Shown piece by piece: positions 5,629-64,000 of a stretch of 64,000 nt of DNA. The position numbers were made by a program, and so were the translations under genes. The notes beneath the pieces were generated by a model, which ran no database searches, had not been told where the DNA came from, and saw only the letters and a program-made list of their open reading frames with translations. How positions within the stretch are numbered: the first letter of the stretch is position 1; every line of letters starts with the position of its first letter. The DNA is from Anniella stebbinsi. Taxonomy: Eukaryota > Chordata > Lepidosauria > Squamata > Anniellidae. Location: contig JARDYH010000004.1 of NCBI GenBank assembly GCA_029215795.1, positions 110,814,001 through 110,878,000 of the forward strand, in the 5' to 3' direction.

Positions 5629-6002
5629 TAGGGAAGCGCACATCAGCAAAATGTGAGCATATCAAGGTTCTCTGAATTCCACCTCAAATCTCATCCAACT
5701 TGTGCTGGTGTCAGATTGAGCTTCTTTTTTTTTTCTTTCACACGAAAATTCATGCACATTATGTGCGAATTTTCCAAATATATGCATCGCTTGTACGTTG
5801 TTTGAAGTCTACACGTGTTTCTCTCATTATTTAAAACGTAGTTGTGAATTTTCCAAACGTACACATTGTAATGCACTTTGTTCTATCAATCGCATTGCAA
5901 GCTCAGACGTTGACCACAGACTTAGTTTGGGCCAGTGTTTGGTTCCGGGAGATGCAAACTCTGGTCAAAACCAAACTGAAACAAATTTCTCAAACATCCT
6001 TA
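5629..6002. mobile_element. hAT-like non-autonomous element, third copy
   Basis: It starts TAGGGAAGCGCACAT and ends near CAAACATCCTTA. It shares the body seen at 1712-2115 and 24351-24740, including a CATTGCAAGCT segment and the end AACTGAAACAAATTTCT. No convincing target duplication is visible. Confidence 0.6.
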
Positions 6003-6409
6003 ACATTAGACAGAAAGTCTGAATTTTCTTCTGTTCACCATCAGAGGAGAATCTTAATTTATGTCAGTATTTCTGTGTAAATCACAAAACAAAAGAAAAG
6101 GGGCCCTCACATATTAGAACATGTACACAATACAGGACCAGAGCTAATTCCAAAATTTATATTGACAGCATAAAAAGTAGTAACTTGTACATTCAGTAAT
6201 TACAAAAGCAGTAACAAACAATTTCAACTATTTCTCTATATTTGCTCATTTTAGAGCTTAAATCACAAGCAGTTACTGGTAGTTAGCCTGGTAAAAGCTT
6301 TTAATTATAAACGGTTACTAATTTAATTGAATCATTGACAGCTGTAATAGCAATTGCTGGTTGATAAAGTCAATGGAAGCTTAAATAGCTTAAATAACAG
6401 TCCGTTGTA

Positions 6410-6471
6410 ATTCTTGAGACGGATACTCCAGACATATACACTCCGTTTCAGAAACTTCATCAGTCAAGAAT
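6410..6471 (-). ncRNA. Hammerhead ribozyme motif, type I, intact core
   Basis: On the minus strand: stem I 5' strand ATTCTTGA (6471-6464), core CTGATGA (6463-6457), short stem II AG-TTT-CT (6456-6450), core GAAA (6449-6446), stem III CGGA (6445-6442) with an 18-nt loop, TCCG (6423-6420), then T and the cleavage C at 6418, and stem I 3' strand TCAAGAAT (6417-6410). Stem I is a perfect 8-bp helix, and stem III is 5 bp counting the A15.1-U16.1 pair. Cleavage is predicted between 6418 and 6417. Stem II is unusually weak (two pairs), as in several retroelement hammerheads, which may work best as dimers. Activity is inferred, not shown. Confidence 0.68.
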
Positions 6472-7062
6472 AAATTCACAAGGGTGTTTATAGATGCTCA
6501 AAAATGCTCAGTTGAACTTTGACACCCGTGACGGCTTAGGCCCTAATAAATGAAATAAAGAGGATAAATGCACAATATACGAAATCTTCACATTTTACAT
6601 AGATAAATGAAAATTTTTATTACCTTCCTAATTAGGACATTTCTTCAATTCTTTAAAGTAGGTTCTTGTGCAGCAGTACCTTCACAGAGCAGCTCATTAA
6701 CACGTGGGTGGGAGAAAGTGAGCATTGGGAATCCACAATGTTCGCAGAATCACTACCCCATAAGTTTTAGTAAGGTCCAGTGCGAGAGCACTATATTATT
6801 TAACAGGCTGAGAAAATTAGTAATAAAATTAGGCCAATGGCATATAATATAACATATAATATAACAAGCTCATAAATAGCCAATTAAGTGCAATAAGTAA
6901 TGCACAGCATGTGTAAATTAGGGGAATTCCCATAATCAAAGCAATTAGGAAAAAATGAAAGGTCTAAATTTTTTTGTAATTGGTAATAAAATTAATAAAT
7001 TCACAAGGGTGTATATAGATGTTCAAAAATGCTCAGTTGAACTCTGACACCTGTGTGAATTT

Positions 7063-7122
7063 ATTCTTCTGATGAAGTTTCTGAAACGGAGTGTATATGT
7101 CCGGAGTATCCGTCTCAAGAAT
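7063..7122 (+). ncRNA. Hammerhead ribozyme motif, second arm, damaged stem I
   Basis: CTGATGA (7069-7075), AGTTTCT (7076-7082), GAAA (7083-7086), CGGA...TCCG (7087-7112), T, and the cleavage C at 7114 match the minus-strand copy. Stem I is ATTCTT (7063-7068) against TCAAGAAT (7115-7122): the GA that abuts the core in the other arm is missing. This leaves two unpaired bases after the cleavage site. Weaker or no cleavage is predicted. Confidence 0.55.
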
Positions 7123-7380
7123 TACAATGGACTGTTATTTAAGCTATTTTAGCTTCCATTGACTTTATCAACCAGCAATTGCTATTACAGCTGTCAATAA
7201 TTCAATTAAATTCGTAACCGTTTATTATTAAAAGCTTTTATCAGGCTAACTACCAGTAACTGCTTGTGATTTAAGCTCTAAAATGAGCAAATATAGAGAA
7301 ATTGTTGAAATTGTTTGTTACTGCTTTTGTAATTACTGAATGTACAAGTTACTACTTTTTATGCTGTCAATATAGCTCAA

Positions 7381-7594
7381 GTAGTTCTGTGTATACATTG
7401 TAGCTTAGTGACATCAACGGTAGCAAAACGTAAGTCACTCAGTTCTGATACAGTAACCTATTGCCATGACTATGCCTGATGAACTGAAACAGGTAAGCCC
7501 TGCTCTGCATGACACCTCCTGTACCACAAAAAGGGAGCTGGGCCTCCAGAGAAGGCCTTACTGGTTAGCCAAGCTGATATGGATCAGGGGGTCC
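7381..7594. other. Unassigned; contains a minimal CTGATGA..GAAA string
   Basis: CTGATGAACTGAAAC occurs at 7475-7489, about 100 bp past the inverted repeat. There is no room for a stem II and no clear stem III, so it is not called a ribozyme. Nothing else was recognised. Confidence 0.3.
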
Positions 7595-7722: not shown

Positions 7723-8078
7723 GGCCCCCTCCACAAGAATGCGCCTTTGCGCCTGGTTCCGCGATTATGCGCATTATCGCGGAGGCGCATTTACTCACAA
7801 TCCCTCTGCACGGGAGGCGGCGGGAAGCGGCGAAGCGCATTAAAAGATGCCCAAAAAGCGCTTTCCAGGTAGTTAATGCGCATAATCGCTTGTTCACACA
7901 GCGAAAATGCGCTTTAACTGCCGGAGCAAAATAAAAGTCGCTATTTAACGCGCGTTCGAAAATGCGCATTATCGGGGAGATAACGCGCCTGTACGCCCGT
8001 TTTGCGCTCCGCTCGTGTGTAGGTAAAATTTATAATGAGCCTTCAAGGCTCATTAAACGCCCCGTGTGGAGGAGGCCC
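7723..8078. mobile_element. CpG-rich non-autonomous TIR element
   Basis: The ends GGCCCCCTCCACA and TGTGGAGGAGGCCC are inverted repeats. AT on both sides may be a 2-bp duplication. The interior is very rich in CpG and GCGC, with AATGCGCATTATCG-like motifs repeated at about 7763, 7877 and 7961. It interrupts the LINE at 7595-9760. CpG content far above its surroundings suggests either recent insertion or protection from methylation. No ORF matches a transposase. Confidence 0.55.
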
Positions 8079-13117: not shown

Positions 13118-13309
13118 TAGGGCTGTGGCTCGGTGGTTGAGCACCTGCTTTGCATGCAGGAAGTTCCAGGTTTGATCCCCAGCATCTCCAAGTAGGGAGA
13201 GGGGGAGGGGGAAGGGGAGGGGGAAAACCTGCTTAAAATCCGGAGAGCTGCTGCTAGTCAGTGTTGACACTACTGGTCTAGATGGAAGGCAGCTTCCTAT
13301 GTTCTTATG
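13118..13309 (+). repeat. tRNA-derived SINE, family A, complete copy
   Basis: The head contains an A-box-like TGGCTCGGTGGTTGAGCA and a B-box-like GGTTTGATCCC, as in a tRNA gene, but there is no full cloverleaf. The body ends CTAGATGGAAGGCAGCTTCC, and the tail is TATGTTCTTATG. The tail matches the CR1-like LINE end at 19552-19571, suggesting mobilisation by that LINE. An expanded GGGGGAGGGGGAAGG run sits in the middle. Other copies are at 91-272 and 2190-2322. Confidence 0.8.
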
Positions 13310-63174: not shown

Positions 63175-64000
63175 TTAAATCAAGCCAGCTGCCTTACTCA
63201 GGCCTGAGGGACGCAGTTTGATATTTTGTGAGGAAGAATATTCCTTCAGAAAGTTCATATTTGTGAATCTTAACCTGACCAGACTTCCTGTCCGGCAATT
63301 GAAGCACATCGAGTGTGTGTACATGAGTCTGAAGGCCAGGGATAGACTAGGGATTCTGTTAGTGTACCGGCCACCCCGCTGCCTATCAGACTCCCTGGCC
63401 GAGCTCACGGAACTGGTCTCGGAGTTGGTGTTGGATTCGCCCAGGCTTTTGGTCCTGGGCGATTTCAACATCCCATTCGAGGCTGGTTTGTCAGGTGCAG
63501 CTCAGGAGTTCATGGCATCCATGACAACCATGGGCCTATCCCAATTGGTCTCTGGACCTACACATTCAGCAGGTCACACCCTCGATGCTGTCTTCAGCTC
63601 CGAACAGACAGATCTGTGGGCGGAGGTAACAAATACCTCTGCATTGTCATGGACAGACCACTTTCTGGTCAGGGTTAGTATCACAGCTACCACCCGCCCC
63701 TGCAGGGGTGGCGGACCTATTAAGATGGTCTGCCCTCGAAGGCTGATGGATCCTTTTGGATTCCAGAAGGCATTGGAGGGATCTATGGCTGGTATCGTCG
63801 ACGATCCTGTAGAAGCCCTGGTCAATAGATGGAATCAAGACCTAACTAGGGCTATCGACACGATCGCCCCCAAACGTCCTCTCCGACCCGCTTCTAATCG
63901 GGCGCCCTGGTATACAGAAGATCTCAGGGAGTTGAAGCGGAAAGGACAATGACTGGAGCGCCGATAGCGGAAAACTCGACTTATATCCGATAAGACACGA
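63175..64000 (+). pseudogene. CR1/L2-clade LINE ORF2, endonuclease part (truncated by window end)
   Basis: The frame 63218-63952 carries the apurinic endonuclease signatures of this clade in order: LLVYRPPR, LLVLGDFNIPFE (the GDFN block), GLSQLVSGPTHSAGHTLD, and SWTDHFLV (the catalytic SDH block, here TDH). The linker PIKMVCPRRLMDPFGFQKAL follows. TGA at 63950-63952 and TAG at 63965-63967 end the frame, yet coding similarity continues (LERR, RKTRLISDKTR). Both stops therefore look like point mutations. The RT domain would follow beyond the window. The 5' end is truncated or diverged. Confidence 0.78.

Follow-up and report, generated by a model that had tools for sequence, protein, structure and literature searches.

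We found that a 62-nt motif on the minus strand (positions 6471-6410) of a 64,000-nt stretch of the Anniella stebbinsi genome (contig JARDYH010000004.1, positions 110,814,001 to 110,878,000; hereafter the window) is probably a hammerhead-type self-cleaving RNA element, or a recent descendant of one, lying in the pseudo-long terminal repeat (pLTR) of a nonautonomous Penelope-like retroelement (PLE). Members of the family to which the motif belongs have in common the core of a hammerhead, stems I and III that covary, a nucleotide other than G just 5' of the cleavage site, and a location behind Penelope-type open reading frames (ORFs) of this genome. The motif was confirmed base for base by inspection of the sequence: CTGATGA, GAAA, an 8-bp stem I (ATTCTTGA with TCAAGAAT) and a 5-bp stem III all stand in canonical order where the original prediction, made from the letters alone, had put them (table 1), and its cleavage site between 6418 and 6417 follows from C17 at 6418. 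Its reading of the motif as type I (open at stem I), with a very short stem II, is likewise supported. When both strands of the window were scanned with a hammerhead descriptor (stem I of at least 5 and stem III of at least 3 pairs), the single match was 6410-6471, whereas 60 first-order Markov windows gave a mean of 0.05 matches each and none that combined a stem I of at least 6 pairs with a stem III of at least 5. In tandem transcripts of the element, the motif would cut after nucleotide 17 and release unit-length RNA. Because stem II is nearly absent, the motif probably needs help, which might be given by the protein of the element or by two motifs pairing through stem and loop III, where CCGG is conserved.

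The window repeat has dozens of copies (at least 127 matching pieces) in the 1.89-Gb A. stebbinsi genome. A core pattern, CTGANGAAGN{2,14}GAAACGN{8,24}CCGGA, had 230 genome matches vs 3 for its reversed control, and a second core pattern had 51 vs 5 for the reversed form. The first pattern fixes the core and, for stem III, its 5' side (ACG), and makes no demand 3' of CCGGA, while the second imposes C17 and leaves loop III free. From the first 100 of the 230 matches, 60 regions were taken for variety, not at random, and these provided 61 rows (the strict set). In total, 76 motif rows (72 distinct types) were aligned without use of structure: the strict set, the Penelope loci L091 and L092, seven rows from L075-L089, the plus- and minus-strand copies of the window, and four copies of its subfamily. 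All of them fit the 230-match pattern except the minus copy of the window and the four subfamily copies. Two of the 73 pattern rows, L126 and L130, were left out before the counts because neither their flanks nor their 3' parts resemble those of the family, and their inclusion would lower the pairing counts. Also outside the 76 rows are L040, which has CCGGG, and 12 motifs of L070-L090 that lack CCGGA or AAG; stem I pairs 1, 2, and 3 form in 11, 10, and 6 of these 12.

U16.1 occurs in 60 of the 61 strict rows, for which the search pattern ended 5' of the site. The pattern did not reach nucleotide 17 either, and this position was T in 42, C in 12, A in 7, and G in none of the strict rows; over all 76 rows it was T in 44, C in 25, and A in 7, C having been fixed by the second pattern or given in some of the 15 rows outside the strict set. 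A nucleotide other than G here is the hammerhead rule, and the sequences follow it where the search could not have enforced it. The pairs 1-6 of stem III form in 60, 51, 59, 59, 57, and 34 of the strict rows, in which pair 4 is GC (30) or AU (29) and pair 5 is GC (44), UA (10), AU (2), or CG (1); over six positions and 76 rows, 85.7% of the cells are paired. Stem I is looser, its pairs 1-3 forming in 50, 44, and 36 of the strict rows as UA, AU, UG, and CG, with GC pairs also present in the window's subfamily. Over the first six positions of stem I, the 72 distinct types gave 239 pairs vs 184 +/- 9 in shuffles (maximum 224 of 5000) and 165-194 in slid registers. The strict rows alone are a weaker test, with 193 pairs vs 163.7 +/- 8.0, a number also reached by the best of 5000 shuffles. 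The covariation score was reached by 0 of 500 shuffles, and every slid register scored lower, in both the 76-row alignment and one of 70 rows. Kinship of the rows inflates these pairing and covariation numbers, and slid registers keep that kinship. Judged from aligned sequence, the family agrees with a type I hammerhead in the core with A15.1-U16.1, in a nucleotide other than G at 17, and in stems I and III paired with compensatory changes. Moreover, a covariance model of the 70 rows, from which the window's subfamilies were excluded (model R1), recovered both window copies in the 64 kb (table 1), with the next match at E 0.21. This recovery shows homology, and it is the covariation that argues for structure.

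The Penelope-like setting, also proposed in the original prediction, was upheld by the place of the same motif behind Penelope-type ORFs, by a head-to-head inverted pLTR form, and by a 9-bp flanking repeat. A GIY-YIG search reached L091 and L092, which carry RVT_1 and GIY-YIG domains (RVT_1 of L092 scoring 29.5 vs a cut-off of 29.6). Model R1 places the motif at L091:3565-3621 and L092:3494-3550, on the same strand as the ORF and about 400 nt behind its stop, and it finds an inverted copy at the 5' end of L091. When 39 of the 73 PLE matches were set against 100 of the 230 places with the motif, seven same-strand motifs lay within 3 kb downstream of L091-homologous ORFs, six at 412-588 nt and one, behind a partial ORF match, at 1414 nt; two others within that distance lay upstream and inverted, and none in these compared sets was arranged otherwise. 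Among the same 100 places there were four close motif pairs, all head-to-head, and 0 direct pairs within 3 kb. For Penelope, head-to-head inverted pLTRs, target-site duplications of 8-10 bp, and junction palindromes have been described, and the same source also describes copies with direct pLTRs or without duplication (PMC3846280). The stretch 6080-7384 of the window has the PLE form, with head-to-head inverted pLTRs and a short candidate target-site duplication.

A non-long-terminal-repeat (non-LTR) retrozyme, that is, a small nonautonomous repeat with two hammerheads in tandem that cut out a circular RNA, would suit the absence of ORF homology from the window's subfamily. It would also suit L045, where the end of the element recurs as a 90-nt direct repeat on either side of an insertion, a hint of head-to-tail units; PLEs have, moreover, been proposed as movers of retrozymes (PMC7229834). 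However, the direct motif pairs that it predicts were absent within 3 kb of the 100 places compared, the window pair is inverted, and retrozyme hammerheads are described as mostly canonical with contacts between loops 1 and 2 (PMC7229834). We regard this origin as quite improbable.

Other observations concern the copies and their ends. A 6.3-kb stretch in L045 was considered as a full-length element and rejected, its ORFs resembling, by eye, an insertion of LINE-1 (a long interspersed nuclear element, LINE). This LINE-like insertion (L045 1314-7640, also by eye) splits the element near the boundary of its hairpin block and hammerhead, and the 90-nt repeat of the element end stands on both sides. 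About 150 nt of the element 3' end are partly tandem-duplicated in L053, L054, and L065, which belong to a related subfamily. Four equal-scoring copies of the element end lie in a 43-kb cluster (C8:13867822-13910700), probably a segmental duplication. Penelope-type ORFs without stops fall into at least two groups (e.g., 95% and 40-43% identical to L091; examples are C5:123528722-123530617 and C3:221605410-221607299), and some Penelope lineages may therefore be young in this genome.

A number of results weigh against the hammerhead reading of the motif and its Penelope setting. A search of all Rfam families found no match up to E=10 in window 6000-7500, and no Rfam hammerhead match was found over the whole window, in 20 copies of related repeats, or in another 20 loci, some of them with Penelope ORFs. 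(RF00163 and RF00008 were also silent over the whole genome, but so were the control searches, and hence nothing is concluded from that.) The minimum-energy fold of the window motif, which retains stem I, is not the hammerhead (-10.5 vs -8.3 kcal/mol with stems I and III and -6.9 kcal/mol with all three), fold z-scores of the motif are about 0, and RNAalifold found no structure in the 70-row alignment, in which the hammerhead costs +2.7 (stems I and III) to +5.6 kcal/mol. Of five covariation measures in all, two fail to exceed shuffles, namely, how many pairs show a double change (the observed value is reached in 485 and 368 of 500 shuffles) and how many types of pair occur (in 451 and 485 of 500). 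Stem II is nearly absent, with 0-2 pairs in the window's subfamily. In tblastn searches at E<=0.1, parts of the L091 ORF matched neither the window nor any of 40 related loci, and the window's subfamily, being without protein homology to that ORF, is therefore called a nonautonomous pLTR element. Finally, both window copies are damaged: the left one keeps the core and stem I and has CTGGA in loop III, so that CCGG is lost, and the right one retains CCGGA and has lost stem I through a GA deletion. The two arms that hold them can form a duplex of 306 bp with about -497 kcal/mol.

Based on the lack of an Rfam match, the structure was tested by comparing relatives. The covariance-model check suggested in the original prediction had a divided outcome: Rfam returned no hit, which the prediction itself had named as a refutation, while the family-specific model found both window copies. 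In view of the covariation, of model R1, and of the 230 vs 3 genome matches, we ascribe the miss to a gap in Rfam, which is without this hammerhead variant. The unfavorable folding and the silence of Rfam would be expected if the motif resembled a hammerhead by chance in AT-rich repeat DNA. However, 0.05 such motifs are expected per window even under looser criteria, the genome matches far outnumber those of the reversed pattern, and the covariation score, standing above shuffles and slides, largely contradicts chance, which we consider scarcely credible. Matches to microRNA families in related loci (mir-5595 in L055, MIR2593 and others in L134, and MIR7723 in L149) overlap head-to-head motif copies or lie between them; they were set aside for this reason as fold-back artefacts.

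The stem II and loop III of the family deserve separate consideration. The linker between CTGANGA and GAAA is 5-16 nt long across the family. In the canonical register, the first pair of stem II forms in only 14 of the 72 distinct types; if one A is left unpaired, the next G, which is imposed by the pattern, has a possible partner in the base preceding GAAA in 55 of 72 (41 G-C and 14 G-U). L149 is, by eye, among the few relatives with a possible longer stem II. Loop III was free in the second pattern, and all 51 of its matches are within one change of CCGGA (25 with CCGGA, 22 with the CpG-transition form, and 4 one base off). In the 75 aligned rows with CCGG, it lies 3-5 nt from the 3' strand of stem III and 6-11 nt from the other side. 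The CCGG of loop III is a palindrome, a feature that double hammerheads are said to require in this loop (PMC6466107). When copies were co-folded through loop III (every third row), the mean gain was -7.65 vs -5.73 (standard deviation 3.14) kcal/mol for shuffled loops, which weakly favors pairing between copies in a model of co-folding that cannot represent loop kissing.

There is another scenario, in which a hammerhead descendant now serves as a structured binding site for the reverse transcriptase of the element, or in another step, without self-cleavage. The conservation of CCGGA in loop III (51 of 51 within one change) exceeds what a catalytic hammerhead requires, CCGGA stands at a nearly fixed 3-5 nt from the 3' strand of stem III, and stem II is nearly lost. 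Likewise, for PAc, the Poseidon hammerhead of Anolis carolinensis, a ribozyme inactive without protein and catalytic mutants that left insertion unaffected have been reported (PMC11167929). Against this scenario, PAc RNA was cleaved once the protein was added (PMC11167929), and binding alone does not explain the kept hammerhead core or the absence of G at nucleotide 17 (0 of 61). We take it to be unlikely, though a serious contender. For the self-cleaving element, we put forward a wider proposal as no more than tentative: the genome may hold a large and diverse class of Penelope-borne hammerheads with a build opposite to the published one, helix III being kept and covarying and stem II almost lost, in which the nearly invariant CCGG of loop III would join two motifs into a double hammerhead or dock the element protein, so that cleavage would occur only in tandem transcripts or in the retrotransposition complex.

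At the window locus, the inverted repeat of the original prediction proved real, with 6158-6463 matching 7069-7374 at 298 of 306 nt and differing from it at the remaining 8. The right arm holds a further copy of the motif, overlooked at first, that has the same core as the left one. Matches of other genome copies to the insertion begin at 6077-6083 and end at 7374, and a 9-bp repeat at such a placement arose in 0.0008 of 200,000 random draws. The copy in the window would be a dead insertion whose head-to-head halves arose together in a single event. Any read-through transcript contains both arms, whose duplex would be expected to win out over the ribozyme fold, and the ribozyme would probably be masked by the antisense copy that such a transcript also carries. 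The motif had also been said to lie just upstream of a host gene, a claim that found no backing: of the 86 stop-to-stop ORFs with at least 90 aa, the 20 that were compared with Pfam revealed no host exon, although short exons could escape such a search. Given the damaged copies, the arm duplex, and the lack of a visible host exon, the locus itself is probably inert, and an action of the window copy on a host transcript is unlikely. The intact core and stem I of the left copy would be in keeping with co-option of the ribozyme for cutting a host transcript in front of a gene. With no host exon among the 20 ORFs, an antisense copy only 605 nt away that would pair with the left copy, and many similar dispersed copies, we consider co-option very improbable.

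Table 1. Features of the Penelope-like insertion and its hammerhead motifs in the window
Feature	Position	Strand	Basis or remark
Whole insertion, two Penelope-like pLTR copies head-to-head	6080..7384	.	bounded by 9-bp repeat
9-bp flanking direct repeat TTCTGTGTA, left (candidate target-site duplication)	6071..6079	+	
9-bp flanking direct repeat TTCTGTGTA, right	7385..7393	+	
Left copy, 3' of hammerhead, with tail (GTGTACA...GAGGGCCCC)	6080..6409	-	tail common to most of the 38 copy ends listed
Hammerhead motif, left copy	6410..6471	-	anatomy; model R1 39.4 bits, E 5.7e-10
Stem I 5' strand ATTCTTGA	6464..6471	-	anatomy; pairs with TCAAGAAT, 8 bp
Core CTGATGA	6457..6463	-	CTGANGA in 76/76 aligned rows, for most imposed by search pattern
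Stem II region AGTTTCT, 7 nt	6450..6456	-	at most 2 pairs (A-U, G-C), UUU loop
GAA core and stem III 5' strand ACGGA (6446-6442; A15.1 first)	6442..6449	-	
Loop III, 18 nt, with CTGGA	6424..6441	-	CpG-transition form of the family's CCGGA
Stem III 3' strand TCCGT (6423-6419) and C17 (6418)	6418..6423	-	predicted cleavage after 6418
Stem I 3' strand TCAAGAAT	6410..6417	-	anatomy
Left copy, 5' of hammerhead	6472..6993	-	hairpin-forming block first (to 6530); no PLE protein homology
Right copy start, within strong hairpin	6994..7060	+	hairpin 6990-7070, fold z-score -6.2
Hammerhead motif, right copy	7061..7122	+	CCGGA kept; model R1 40.9 bits, E 2e-10
Right copy, 3' of hammerhead	7123..7384	+	matches to other copies end at 7374

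Considering the published systems, PLEs are described in reviews as carrying minimal type I hammerheads that lack helix III (PMC6155905; PMC7761336), and these hammerheads are also described as working as dimers. The motif shares with the published PLE hammerheads (Lunse et al. 2017) the place in a Penelope-like pLTR, the type I topology, and the hammerhead core; unlike them, it has five to six positions of helix III that pair and covary, a stem II of 0-2 pairs in the window's subfamily, and a nearly invariant CCGG in loop III. A protein-assisted PLE hammerhead has been published from Anolis: PAc also belongs to a lizard Penelope/Poseidon element with reverse transcriptase (RT) and GIY-YIG endonuclease (EN), and its hammerhead is likewise by the pLTR (PMC11167929). 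However, PAc is cleaved 26 bp after the start codon, at the junction of pLTR and ORF (PMC11167929), whereas the copies placed here lie about 400-600 nt behind the ORF, and stem III rather than stem II is the developed stem here. In the retrozyme hammerhead HHR_Amex2 of the axolotl, helix III is likewise described as more stable, and helix II as weaker, than in the sister type (PMC7229834), a mild step in the same direction. It differs in that helix III has two pairs and a tetraloop, the base of helix II shows only a U-U mismatch, and the repeats are tandems of about 350 bp, in contrast to the head-to-head pLTRs here (PMC7229834). In general, metazoan non-LTR retrozymes are also small nonautonomous repeats with a type I hammerhead, but they are described as head-to-tail tandems with mostly canonical motifs (PMC7229834), compared with head-to-head pairs and a Penelope-type insertion. 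Hammerheads with a stem II of one or two pairs, similarly short to that of the window motif, can cleave, and the one-pair example in that report depends on a loop I pseudoknot (PMC3088659).

A literature search over the titles and abstract openings of the papers listed showed no described Penelope hammerhead lacking stem II; the primary papers of 2014 and 2017 were outside that scope, and absence in print is thus unproven. Relative to published descriptions, the novelty would lie in the stem economy and in loop III, and the family is set apart from the primary PLE hammerheads by what reviews say of these. The in vivo activity and role of PLE hammerheads have been termed still a mystery (PMC7761336). 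A class in which stem II is nearly gone, stems I and III covary, and loop III is fixed points to candidate triggers (the loop III palindrome, the RT/EN protein, and tandem copies) and bears on why Penelope-like elements retain weak hammerheads and what activates them. In fact, present Rfam models miss a hammerhead variant with about 200 matches in a single animal genome.

Some further features of the window may be mentioned. The hairpin directly 5' of the right hammerhead (6990-7070) belongs to a block that adjoins the motif in many copies and is possibly a palindrome at the pLTR start. A LINE-type endonuclease ORF at 63179-63949 was the sole Pfam match among the 20 ORFs (PF14529, 27.3 vs a cut-off of 27.4 bits). 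Short direct and inverted repeats containing GCGC are clustered at 7758-7979, and a tRNA-like sequence at 13119-13190 (Rfam tRNA, 37.8 bits) is probably the head of a short interspersed nuclear element.
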